Shown piece after piece: positions 35,768 through 47,911 of a DNA stretch of 64,000 nucleotides; the first letter of the stretch is position 1, and each line of letters starts with the position of its first letter. The stretch is from NCBI RefSeq assembly GCF_000816145.1, contig NZ_CP007141.1, positions 1,674,001-1,738,000 on the forward strand. Direction: 5' to 3'. The notes beneath the pieces were generated by a model. The model worked only from the letters and a program-made list of their open reading frames with translations. It was not told the origin of the DNA and made no database searches. The DNA is from Pseudothermotoga hypogea DSM 11164 = NBRC 106472 (GTDB lineage: Bacteria; Thermotogota; Thermotogae; Thermotogales; DSM-5069). The position numbers and the translations under genes are program-made.

Positions 35768-35804
35768 AAAAGTGTAAAGTGAATATTCCCTCCCACAGGG
35801 AAAG

Positions 35805-35878
35805 GCCCTTGTATAACCCCGGGAATAAGGCTCGGGGGTCTCTACCGGACAGCCGTAAACTGTCCTGGCTACAAGGGC
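35805..35878 (+). promoter_or_regulatory. Purine riboswitch aptamer, guanine type
   Basis: P1 pairs 35805-35813 with 35870-35878 (nine perfect pairs). P2 is CCCCG/CGGGG with loop GGAATAAGGCT. J2/3 is TCTCTACC. P3 is GGACAG/CTGTCC (35847-35852, 35860-35865) with the invariant loop CCGTAAA. The base just before the 3' strand of P1 is C (35869), equivalent to C74 of the xpt aptamer, which specifies guanine or hypoxanthine rather than adenine. It precedes the IMP-synthesis operon, the expected target. Confidence 0.93.
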
Positions 35879-35889
35879 TCATTTCTTTA

Positions 35890-35925
35890 CCGGTAGAGAC
35901 CAAGGCCTACCGGATTTTTGTTTTT
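35890..35925 (+). terminator. Riboswitch-controlled terminator before purE
   Basis: CCGGTAG (35890-35896) pairs with CTACCGG (35907-35913), followed by ATTTTTGTTTTT. The segment CCGGTAGAGACC (35890-35901) is perfectly complementary over 12 bases to GGTCTCTACCGG (35837-35848) in J2/3-P3 of the aptamer. Without ligand this antiterminator forms. With guanine bound the aptamer holds J2/3 and the terminator forms, so the operon should be switched off by purine. Confidence 0.92.
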
Positions 35926-44806: not shown

Positions 44807-46051
44807 ATGAAGGCGCTCGTCATAGGTTCGGGTGGTCGCGAACACGCGTTGGTATGGAAACTCCACCAGGAAGGATACGAAGTCTTCTGCGCTCCAGGTA
44901 ACGGTGGTATCTGCCAGGATGCGACGTGCTACGAAGCAAAAAGTGTGGATGAACTGTTACAGCTCGCTTTGAAAGAGAAGATAGATCTGACTGTCGTGGG
45001 TCCGGAGGCGTATCTGGCACAAGGTGTGGTCGACGTTTTCGAATCGCACGGTCTCAAAATCTTTGGACCAAACAGAAAAGCGTCTCAGCTCGAGTGCAGT
45101 AAGGTTTACGCAAAACTGCTCATGGACGAGTGTGGGATACCAACGGCGCGGTTCAGGTTGTTCGACGACCCTGTTCAGGCAGAAAAGTATGTTGAACGCT
45201 GCGAATTTCCAATCGTTATAAAGGCGGATGGTTTGGCGCAAGGTAAAGGAAGTTACGTGGTGATGAGTCGTGAAGAAGCGTTCAACGTGATCGATTCGTT
45301 GATGAGGAAAAAGATCTTTGGAGAGTCGGGTGAGAGGATCGTTGTCGAAGAGTTTTTGCGAGGCAAAGAAATGAGCATGATGGTTCTCACCGATGGTAAA
45401 ACTTACGTTCCCATGATGAGTGCGATGGATTACAAGAAAATCTACGATGGCGACAGGGGGCCCAACACGGGTGGAATGGGTTCAATCGCACCGGCACCGC
45501 ACTACAGCGAGAACCTGTGGCGAAGTGTGAGAGAGGAAATCTTGGACAAGCTTTTCCCAGCACTCGAGAAGCGGAACGTGATCTACAAAGGCGTCCTTTA
45601 TCTGGGTCTGATGATCACTCAAGATGGTCCCAAAGTGCTCGAATTCAACTGCAGGTTCGGTGATCCAGAAACTCAGTCCATTCTGCTGCTCTTGGAAAGT
45701 GATCTTTTGGAAATGCTCCAGGCCGTGGTCGAGGGAGAATTGGAGAGACGCAAAATATTATGGTCAAAAGAAAAGGCAGTTTGCGTGGTTCTGGTGAGCG
45801 GAGGTTATCCCGAGTCTTACAAAACGGGTTTTGAGATCTTCGGTTTGAACAAGGTGAAAGATGCGATCGTTTTCCATGCAGGTACCAAGAAGGTCGATGG
45901 AAAGATCGTCACCAGCGGTGGTAGGGTTTTAAACGTTTGTGCAAAGGCTGATACTTACGCAAAGGCCAGAAGACGGGTTTACGAGGAGATTGAGAAAATC
46001 CACTTCGAGAACATGTATTATCGCAAGGACATCGGTCTGTTCATCTCTTGA
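44807..46051 (+). CDS. purD: GAR synthetase (PurD)
   Basis: A 414-residue ATP-grasp ligase joining phosphoribosylamine and glycine. It starts MKALVIGSGGREHALVWKL. Other blocks are IVIKADGLAQGKGSYVVMS, RGPNTGGMGSIAPAP and FNCRFGDPETQSILLLL. GAGGTGGTACC precedes ATG 44807. It ends the operon, and the -35 box of the next promoter overlaps its stop codon. Confidence 0.97.
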   Translation: MKALVIGSGGREHALVWKLHQEGYEVFCAPGNGGICQDATCYEAKSVDELLQLALKEKIDLTVVGPEAYLAQGVVDVFESHGLKIFGPNRKASQLECSKVYAKLLMDECGIPTARFRLFDDPVQAEKYVERCEFPIVIKADGLAQGKGSYVVMSREEAFNVIDSLMRKKIFGESGERIVVEEFLRGKEMSMMVLTDGKTYVPMMSAMDYKKIYDGDRGPNTGGMGSIAPAPHYSENLWRSVREEILDKLFPALEKRNVIYKGVLYLGLMITQDGPKVLEFNCRFGDPETQSILLLLESDLLEMLQAVVEGELERRKILWSKEKAVCVVLVSGGYPESYKTGFEIFGLNKVKDAIVFHAGTKKVDGKIVTSGGRVLNVCAKADTYAKARRRVYEEIEKIHFENMYYRKDIGLFIS

Positions 46052-46077
46052 CATCTTACATGATGGTTATGTATAAT
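46048..46077 (+). promoter_or_regulatory. Promoter of the dapAB leader
   Basis: TTGACA (46048-46053) and TATAAT (46072-46077) are both perfect, 18 bases apart. Transcription would start near 46084, giving a leader of about 235 bases before dapA. Confidence 0.9.
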
Positions 46078-46109
46078 ACCAAAAAACAAAGCATAGGAGT
46101 GCCATCGTG

Positions 46110-46232
46110 ATGGCCATATTTCTTCGATTTGTCAGGCAATTTGCCTTGAACTCTATTGAGAATAAGAAGGCTAAGCGCAGCCACCCGCTCGTTGATGGTT
46201 GGCCTGCGCTTAGCTCGTTTTGTACAAGCTGA
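46110..46232 (+). CDS. Putative lysine-sensing leader peptide of dapAB
   Basis: A 40-codon frame, too short to stand out alone. AGGAG (46095-46099) lies seven bases before an in-frame GTG (46107) and ten before ATG 46110. Codons 19, 20 and 22 are AAG, in the order Lys-Lys-Ala-Lys-Arg (46164-46178), immediately at the first arm of the attenuator. The stop TGA (46230-46232) falls inside the third arm. A ribosome waiting for Lys-tRNA at these codons would cover 46170-46180. The position of the control codons and stop relative to the arms is the main support; protein-level function is not implied. Confidence 0.75.
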   Translation: MAIFLRFVRQFALNSIENKKAKRSHPLVDGWPALSSFCTS

Positions 46233-46297
46233 GCGCAAGCCAATGTAGAAAGAAGATCATCAACGAGCGGGCTACAAAACATGTAGCCCGCTTTTTT
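46170..46297 (+). promoter_or_regulatory. Attenuator with mutually exclusive hairpins before dapA
   Basis: Arm A1 (46170-46180) pairs perfectly over 11 bases with A2 (46204-46214). A2 can instead pair with A3: 46199-46203 and 46205-46215 with 46239-46243 and 46227-46237, 16 pairs with one G-U and one mismatch. Segment B1 (46184-46197) is perfectly complementary over 14 bases to B2 (46258-46271). B1:B2 can form around A2:A3, but it is trapped in the loop when A1:A2 forms. B2 overlaps the terminator stem 46267-46276/46282-46291, which ends in TTTTTT (46292-46297). So A2:A3 plus B1:B2 is the antiterminator, and A1:A2 permits termination. Confidence 0.85.
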
Positions 46298-46319
46298 ATT
46301 CATAAGGAGGGGTTGAGAA

Positions 46320-47216
46320 ATGGAGGAAAGTGGCATGTTCGTGGGAGTTGGAACTGCTATCGTGACGCCGTTCAAGGGCGGAGAGGTGGATCACGAGAGC
46401 TACAAAAAGCTCGTTGAGTGGCAACTCGACAGTGGCGTCAAAGCAATTGTGGTTGCAGGAACGACGGGAGAGGGAGCGACACTGAGAATTGACGAAAGGG
46501 AACGTTTGGTCTCCGTCACCAAGGAAATCTGTGAAAAAAGAGCTCAGGTGATAGTTGGGACCGGTACCAACGACACGCGCAAAACTCTCGAGCTTTCCCT
46601 GAGTGCTGTTAAGAATGGCGCGGATGCTGTACTCGTAGTGACACCTTATTACAACAAACCCACCCAAGAAGGTTTGTACGCTCATTACAGGTACCTTTCG
46701 GAGAGAATTGACATACCCATAATTATCTACAACGTTCCATCGCGTACCAGTGTAAATATAGCCCCAGAGACCGTGGCTAGACTTGCGAACGACTGCAAAA
46801 ACATACGCGCCATAAAAGAGGCCAATCAAGACATTTCTCAATCCGATGAGATCTTGAAACTGACGCGTAATATGGATTTCTACGTATACTCCGGAAACGA
46901 TGACAGAACCTTTCACATGCTTTGTGCCGGTGCGAAGGGTGTTATATCCGTGGCGTCGAACGTGATCCCACACCGTATGGTCGAGATGGTTAACGCGATT
47001 TTTGAGGGAAACCTGAGGAAAGCAAGGGAACTGCATTTCAAATACCTTGAGTTGTTCAAGTCCTTGTTCGTCGAGACTAACCCCATGCCGGTGAAGGCTG
47101 CACTTCACCTGATGGGTCGCATCGAGAACGAATTTCGTCTGCCTTTGGTACCACCCAAACAATCCACAGTGGACCAATTAAGAAGAACGTTGTTTGAACT
47201 GGAGGTGGTCAAATGA
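46320..47216 (+). CDS. dapA: 4-hydroxy-tetrahydrodipicolinate synthase (DapA)
   Basis: A 298-residue TIM-barrel aldolase condensing pyruvate and aspartate semialdehyde, the first step specific to diaminopimelate and lysine. Blocks are VAGTTGEGATLRIDERERL, VTPYYNKPTQEGLYAHYRYL, IIYNVPSRTSVNI (with Tyr) and IRAIKEANQD, where Lys forms the Schiff base. AAGGAGGGG precedes ATG 46320. It is expressed behind the leader-peptide attenuator. Confidence 0.96.
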   Translation: MEESGMFVGVGTAIVTPFKGGEVDHESYKKLVEWQLDSGVKAIVVAGTTGEGATLRIDERERLVSVTKEICEKRAQVIVGTGTNDTRKTLELSLSAVKNGADAVLVVTPYYNKPTQEGLYAHYRYLSERIDIPIIIYNVPSRTSVNIAPETVARLANDCKNIRAIKEANQDISQSDEILKLTRNMDFYVYSGNDDRTFHMLCAGAKGVISVASNVIPHRMVEMVNAIFEGNLRKARELHFKYLELFKSLFVETNPMPVKAALHLMGRIENEFRLPLVPPKQSTVDQLRRTLFELEVVK

Positions 47217-47911
47217 GTGGTTTGAAGTACGGAATCGTTGGGTCCAAAGGTAAGATGGGCAGAGAGATCATGGAATATTTCTCGTCATTTGGCGACGAAT
47301 GCGTCGTTGAAAAGGATGTTGACCATTTCGTAGAACGGGATGTCCCACAGTTGATCATTGATTTTTCCTCACCGCAAGGCTTGAAAGAGAGTGTCGAGCT
47401 GTGCAGAAAGTACAACTGTGGCCTGATCGTCGGAACAACAGGTTTAACCGATGAATCTTTCAGGTTGTTGGGGGAACTTTCGAAAACGTTGCCAGTGGTT
47501 CAGAGTTACAATTTTTCGAGTGGTATGAGCATCATGAAGGAGATCTTGAAGGCCTTCCGCGAACAATTCAAGGATTGGGATTGTGCAATGATAGAAATAC
47601 ACCACAGTCAAAAAAAGGACGCACCTTCTGGCACCGCTAAGATGCTCAAGGAGGTTATTCAAAGAGATTTATCGATCAGTTCCATCAGGGTTGGTGGAAT
47701 CTTCGGTGAACATACGGTGATCTTTTCAAATGCCGGCGAGGTGGTTGAGATAAGCCACAGGGCACTTTCCAGAAGGGCGTTTTCAATCGGGGTTCGGCGA
47801 GCGGCGCTCTTTCTTTTAACAAAAGAAAAAGGTTTCTTCACTTACGAAGATGTTTTGAAGGGGGTCGATAAAGCCGCAGAAGAATTACGTGGAATTTCCG
47901 AGTTGCTATGA
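47213..47911 (+). CDS. dapB: 4-hydroxy-tetrahydrodipicolinate reductase (DapB)
   Basis: A 232-residue NAD(P)H-dependent reductase for the step after DapA. The nucleotide loop is GIVGSKGKMGREIMEYF. The substrate site is EIHHSQKKDAPSGTAK, with the catalytic His and Lys. VGTTGLTDESF and YNFSSGMSI are further family blocks. ATG 47213 overlaps the dapA stop. No lysA or other dap genes follow; the next 137 bp hold no clear feature apart from the convergent end of the permease gene. Confidence 0.95.
   Translation: MSGLKYGIVGSKGKMGREIMEYFSSFGDECVVEKDVDHFVERDVPQLIIDFSSPQGLKESVELCRKYNCGLIVGTTGLTDESFRLLGELSKTLPVVQSYNFSSGMSIMKEILKAFREQFKDWDCAMIEIHHSQKKDAPSGTAKMLKEVIQRDLSISSIRVGGIFGEHTVIFSNAGEVVEISHRALSRRAFSIGVRRAALFLLTKEKGFFTYEDVLKGVDKAAEELRGISELL

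Follow-up and report, generated by a model that had tools for sequence, protein, structure and literature searches.

The region upstream of dapA-dapB in the analyzed window (64,000 nucleotides of the Pseudothermotoga hypogea DSM 11164 genome) very probably carries a ribosome-mediated transcription attenuator that is specific for lysyl-tRNA and would control these two genes. Support for this prediction comes from the sequence and from comparison with relatives, and comprises a leader frame, Lys codons at the first pairing arm (A1), mutually exclusive folds, co-varying helices, and the absence of the lysine riboswitch (L-box, RF00168). The first-pass annotation, made from the window alone, had proposed lysine attenuation by a translating ribosome, and as a prediction this proposal gained support from homologues, co-variation, and codon switching. 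Beyond the view of that annotation, the leader proved to be common in relatives and to exclude the L-box, and a second Lys leader was found in the same genome.

Leader elements upstream of dapA

A promoter, Shine-Dalgarno sequence, Lys-containing frame, pairing arms, and terminator were located upstream of dapA by sequence check, at the coordinates given by the first-pass annotation:

46048-46077 (+): sigma-70-type promoter, TTGACA-18 nt-TATAAT, with 12/12 consensus bases
46095-46099 (+): Shine-Dalgarno sequence AGGAG of the leader peptide, identified from sequence
46107-46232 (+): leader peptide frame (V)MAIFLRFVRQFALNSIENKKAKRSHPLVDGWPALSSFCTS, the frame that is longest of three in 23/23 leaders
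46164-46175 (+): control codons AAG AAG GCT AAG (Lys-Lys-Ala-Lys), kept in relatives
46170-46180 (+): arm A1, a perfect 11-bp complement of A2, co-varying
46184-46197 (+): arm B1 of the antiterminator clamp, the exact 14-bp reverse complement of B2, co-varying
46204-46214 (+): arm A2, which pairs with A1 or A3
46227-46241 (+): arm A3, which pairs with A2 and holds the leader stop codon
46258-46271 (+): arm B2, the 14-bp complement of B1, overlapping the 5' arm of the terminator
46266-46297 (+): intrinsic terminator, AGCGGGCTAC-loop-GTAGCCCGCT and T run, from sequence and a terminator scan
46320-47216 (+): dapA, 4-hydroxy-tetrahydrodipicolinate synthase (TIGR00674, 346.6 bits; cut-off, 206)
47213-47911 (+): dapB, 4-hydroxy-tetrahydrodipicolinate reductase (TIGR00036, 164.6 bits; cut-off, 122)

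The leader frame starts at GTG 46107 (41 codons) or ATG 46110 (40 codons) and stops at TGA 46230-46232. Counted from the ATG, its Lys AAG codons (46164-46169 and 46173-46175) are codons 19, 20, and 22, as had been described together with the ribosome site. The promoter boxes called perfect are so at every consensus position, and the sequence likewise bears out the pairing of A2 with either A1 or A3, the Lys codons adjoining A1, the stop codon within A3, and the overlap of B2 with a 10-bp terminator stem and T tail. The terminator arms lie at 46266-46275 and 46283-46292 with the T run next to them, and form 12 pairs when flanks are included. Terminator-like sites numbered 3, versus 0.5 expected, and the folding energy of the window leader corresponded to z = -7.1, with 0/200 shuffles equally good. 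The identities of dapA and dapB, which the first-pass annotation had placed downstream, rest on NCBIfam equivalog models, both above cut-off. A Shine-Dalgarno-like sequence also precedes the leader start in most relatives.

Homologous leaders and their control codons

Besides the window's own genome, 11 genomes of the order proved to have a homologous leader, in a DNA search with the window leader and on inspection of the sequence upstream of dapA in relatives. These and the window leader make up 12 asd/dapA leaders with a Shine-Dalgarno sequence, start codon, and Lys cluster. In nine genomes, from genera g5 and g6, the leader precedes asd, with which the lysine operon begins; in G000 (the window's own genome), G002, and G007, it directly precedes dapA. 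A covariance model of the asd/dapA leaders, searched against 103 Thermotogota genomes, found a second group of Lys leaders in 9 genomes, including G000, before an operon of dapD (tetrahydrodipicolinate N-acetyltransferase, TIGR03532), an aminotransferase gene, and an M20 deacetylase gene. The dapD leader of the window's genome (L190, G000:C1:635175-635298, -) contains Lys-Lys-Glu-Lys-Lys, and its peptide ends in KVEKKEKKCNRPVICGGVHSL before the stop codon. In G046, which belongs to another order, a leader with Lys-Lys-Ala-Lys precedes asd-dapF-dapA-dapB. A leader of the same shape was found in G002 (L189, G002:C1:390989-391116) before hom-thrC-thrB, with the peptide segment GTTTTSNCPP and four consecutive Thr codons. 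Weak model matches in G029, G064, G065, G066, and G085 and at G014:C1:175610 were dropped as apparently ordinary terminators that lack a suitable leader. A further leader of the same layout, before dapF-dapD in G007 (L235, G007:C1:2060270-2060368), has one Lys codon and possibly represents decayed or altered control.

The control site was defined as the five codons before the model start. Across 23 leaders (22 of the lysine pathway and the Thr leader before hom-thrC-thrB), the pathway residue occupied 71/115 codons of the control site, compared to 24/712 elsewhere in the leader peptides; the P value of this enrichment is only indicative because the leader sequences are related. Every one of the 22 Lys-pathway leaders has Lys at this site, and no other residue is so constant there. 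The median open length upstream of the site was 30 codons for the Lys frame and 5 and 2 codons for the two alternatives, and in every leader the Lys frame was the longest. A second model (R2), built from sequence 3' of the control codons, recovered the leaders again, its member leaders having been originally found with a model (R1) that included those codons. The low number of Lys codons, three at the window site and two at the site of the G002 dapA leader, was counted against lysine attenuation, as was the lone Lys codon of the dapF-dapD leader in G007. The features expected of a leader-peptide attenuator were present, namely, a translatable short leader frame with a ribosome-binding site, codons for the pathway product adjoining the first arm (Lys in 22 leaders and Thr before hom-thrC-thrB), and a mutually exclusive antiterminator and intrinsic terminator. 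Lys codons and frame were thus retained in related leaders, a check that the first-pass annotation had named. The strongest single argument for the ribosome as sensor is that the layout stays constant and the codons change with the pathway, from Lys to Thr at hom-thrC-thrB.

Alternative folds and helix co-variation

For each of A1:A2, A2:A3, and B1:B2, a leader's own arms out-paired arms swapped between leaders (0/20,000 permutations each, with all 23 leaders and also with 15 representatives, phylogeny being ignored). Co-variation was plainest in B1:B2, which reads CCCGCTCGTTGATG/CATCAACGAGCGGG in the window, CCCGGTGATC/GATCACCGGG before dapD, and CCTGGTAATTTTTAAGG/CCTTAAAAATTACCGGG in G046. 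Compensatory change in the arms, proposed earlier as a check, was therefore found. The leader stop codon lies between A2 and A3 or inside A3. The 14-bp perfect pairing of B1 with B2 stood as first described; the claim that it is incompatible with A1:A2 was refined. B1 sits in the A1-A2 loop, so that B1:B2 plus A1:A2 is formally a pseudoknot, which is disfavored rather than impossible: sterically, a 3-nt loop would face a 14-bp stem, and B1 is also engaged in pairing within the extended A1:A2 hairpin.

Two states were compared by folding energy, a comparison also called for by the first-pass annotation: state I (A1:A2 plus the terminator) and state II (A2:A3 nested in B1:B2). Both were strong in 12/12 asd/dapA leaders. 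State I was lower in 11 of them, and in the window leader state II was lower by about 4 kcal/mol. The full-length ground state was A1:A2 plus the terminator in 10/12, the exceptions being G000 and G002. When the 3' arm of the terminator was left off, as in the nascent chain, the antiterminator was the minimum in 12/12, even without a ribosome. In equilibrium folding of the full-length leader, masking by a ribosome failed to separate the states, since the finished terminator prevailed in most genomes regardless of the mask; in masked leaders ending before the 3' arm of the terminator, the antiterminator won in nearly every masked state. Thermodynamics alone therefore does not demonstrate the switch.

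Proposed mechanism

When charged tRNA-Lys is scarce, a ribosome would stall on AAG AAG (46164-46169) and cover A1. A2:A3 and B1:B2 would then form, with B1 holding the 5' arm of the terminator, and this sequestration would let RNA polymerase read into dapAB. With abundant lysine, the ribosome would proceed to the stop codon in A3, A1:A2 would form during transcription and take up B1, and the terminator would form and stop transcription. A ribosome that has reached the stop codon would, in the window leader, occupy A3 and leave A2 nearly free; in asd-type leaders it would cover part of A2 as well, so that the terminating state would need ribosome release. Since the nascent chain favors state II without a ribosome, termination would depend on A1:A2 forming first, which is a kinetic assumption; other attenuators likewise rely on early pairing of the A1:A2 type for termination.

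Probable exchange with the lysine riboswitch

As the first-pass annotation had maintained, no L-box was present at the locus: RF00168 had no match in the window or in the whole genome (2,165,416 bases), and control genomes matched. In searches of the window, genome, order, and phylum, the L-box was absent wherever a Lys leader was found. Among the 45 genomes of the order, 23 had only the L-box, 19 had only a Lys leader, none had both, and 3 had neither; these three are incomplete (60 to 81%). The L-box of sister genera lies roughly 2 kb upstream of dapA, which is the leader's operon position. At the window leader, the T-box had no match at the gathering score or with E values up to 1, and no other Rfam family reached its gathering score; a likeness to L20_leader (26 bits; cut-off, 58.7) was taken as a chance resemblance to a hairpin and terminator. 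Elsewhere in the window, a purine riboswitch aptamer was matched at 35789-35891 (+) (RF00167, 74.9 bits).

In the DapA tree, the order's leader-bearing sequences grouped in a single supported clade (99/97), separate from those that go with an L-box. The window DapA grouped with genera of another family, away from its own, and four genomes of the window's own genus were without a close DapA. This placement and these missing genes suggest that dapA was transferred, perhaps together with its leader. The DapA of G046 fell with the L-box clade, yet G046 has the leader, and it is therefore likely that leader and L-box were exchanged more than once.

Alternative explanations

An unrecognized riboswitch, in which the RNA would bind lysine itself and the open frame would be incidental, could account for the strong sequence conservation of the A1-A2 hairpin and GCGGGC terminator among asd-type leaders and for the occupation of the L-box position of sister genera. 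This explanation is highly unlikely, given that the same architecture carries Thr codons before hom-thrC-thrB, that Trp or Tyr/Trp/Phe codons appear in related leaders upstream of aromatic genes, that the frame is retained in 23/23 leaders, and that neither the L-box nor any Rfam family matched. The switching of control codons in sister leaders (Thr, Trp) argues for a translating ribosome rather than a ligand aptamer.

A ribosome-mediated attenuator might instead sense another signal, such as arginine or cysteine shortage or a translation inhibitor, as most asd/dapA leaders have an Arg codon (CGC) after their Lys cluster and many have Cys. However, G007 and G046 have His in place of Arg, the window leader has His in place of Cys, the G002 dapA leader lacks Cys at that position, and dapD leaders mostly have Cys-Asn-Arg instead. 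With Lys the sole residue kept at the site in 22/22 Lys-pathway leaders and with all the regulated genes belonging to the lysine pathway, we consider such a signal very improbable. A strong intrinsic terminator does stand between purD and dapA, and it could simply end purD transcription behind a small frame that arose by chance; a consensus promoter, though, follows purD and precedes the leader, the leader's homologues in other genomes are located elsewhere and always upstream of lysine genes, and helices and Lys codons are conserved, which together leave this explanation with almost no probability. The favored reading remains attenuation by a ribosome that responds to lysyl-tRNA.

Comparison with known regulatory systems

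The predicted attenuator resembles the proteobacterial trp, his, thr, leu, ilv, and phe attenuators in its pathway codons at the first arm, its alternative helices, its intrinsic terminator, and its control of the cognate operon. It differs from them in its Lys codons, as the six specificities listed for those attenuators (His, Leu, Thr, Trp, Ile/Val, and Phe) do not include lysine (PMC3766115), and in its nested clamp, in which A2:A3 lies inside B1:B2 and B2, not A3, overlaps the terminator. In sister genera of the order, it is the lysine riboswitch that controls this asd-dap operon; in contrast to that riboswitch, the window leader has no L-box match and has a translated frame, and no genome of the order contains both. 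The L-box has been described in Thermotogales (PMC5584792 and PMC3766115), and the operons under its control have been listed (PMC5584792). T-box leaders are alike in sensing tRNA charging and in switching between terminator and antiterminator, but here a T-box match is missing and a translated leader frame is present. The trp, ilv, leu, and cys leaders of Actinobacteria are similar as leader-peptide control outside the proteobacteria; no RNA structure was reported upstream of actinobacterial lysine operons, and the L-box was named as the lysine RNA control elsewhere (PMC1262725).

In these surveys, RNA control by lysine means the L-box, and leader-peptide specificities do not include lysine. 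A search of mainly open-access literature found no lysine leader-peptide attenuator, and overlap with other work is possible (e.g., with a 2010 attenuation survey). It is well supported that the predicted element joins a known mechanism, classical ribosome-mediated attenuation, to a lysine specificity and a nested antiterminator layout that are absent from the surveyed literature. Two unrelated sensors, one of free lysine and one of tRNA-Lys charging, would precede the same operon in sister genera, which opens regulator exchange to direct study. Attenuation of this kind would also imply a coupling of transcription and translation tight enough to support it in Thermotogota, which are thermophilic.

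A wider set of leaders in Thermotogota

Thermotogota probably reuse a common attenuator layout with varied control codons, and within a single order the lysine attenuator and riboswitch have probably taken each other's place at the same operon. The codons and operons on which this reading draws are Lys before asd/dapA and dapD, Thr before hom-thrC-thrB, Trp before trpB-like genes, Tyr/Trp/Phe before a TrpX-type transporter and 3-deoxy-D-arabino-heptulosonate 7-phosphate (DAHP) synthase, Met before aspartokinase-HcyBio, Phe before a related transporter, and His/Lys before a basic amino-acid transporter. The aromatic, Met, and His/Lys leaders were weaker model matches recognized by inspection. 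The set of predicted attenuators is larger than the lysine leaders and merits systematic description.

In the window's genome, the leader MDVKKDLRFGEFAYAYWWFRGKPSSGIPPKPLGT (L236, G000:C1:285068-285172, -), ending at its stop codon, carries Tyr/Trp/Phe codons before a TrpX-type ABC transporter. Nine related loci preserve the Tyr-Ala-Tyr-Trp-Trp-Phe run of this leader almost intact, a conservation beyond the apparent need of a simple attenuator. A leader with Phe-Phe-Tyr-Ala-Tyr-Trp-Phe precedes DAHP synthase. In several genera, the leader of a TrpB-like gene contains a Trp run (WWW, WWWW; L245, L248, L249, L250, and L252). Leaders with Met-Met-Ile-Met precede an aspartokinase-like gene and an HcyBio gene (L180 in G030 and L186 in G024) and possibly represent a methionine attenuator. 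His/Lys leaders (KHHAK, KHHTR) of a generally similar layout precede a basic amino-acid ABC transporter (L198, L199, L200, and L253), and Phe leaders from other families of the class (FVFAF in L184 of G050 and FSFF in L181 of G090) precede genes for TrpX-like substrate-binding proteins.
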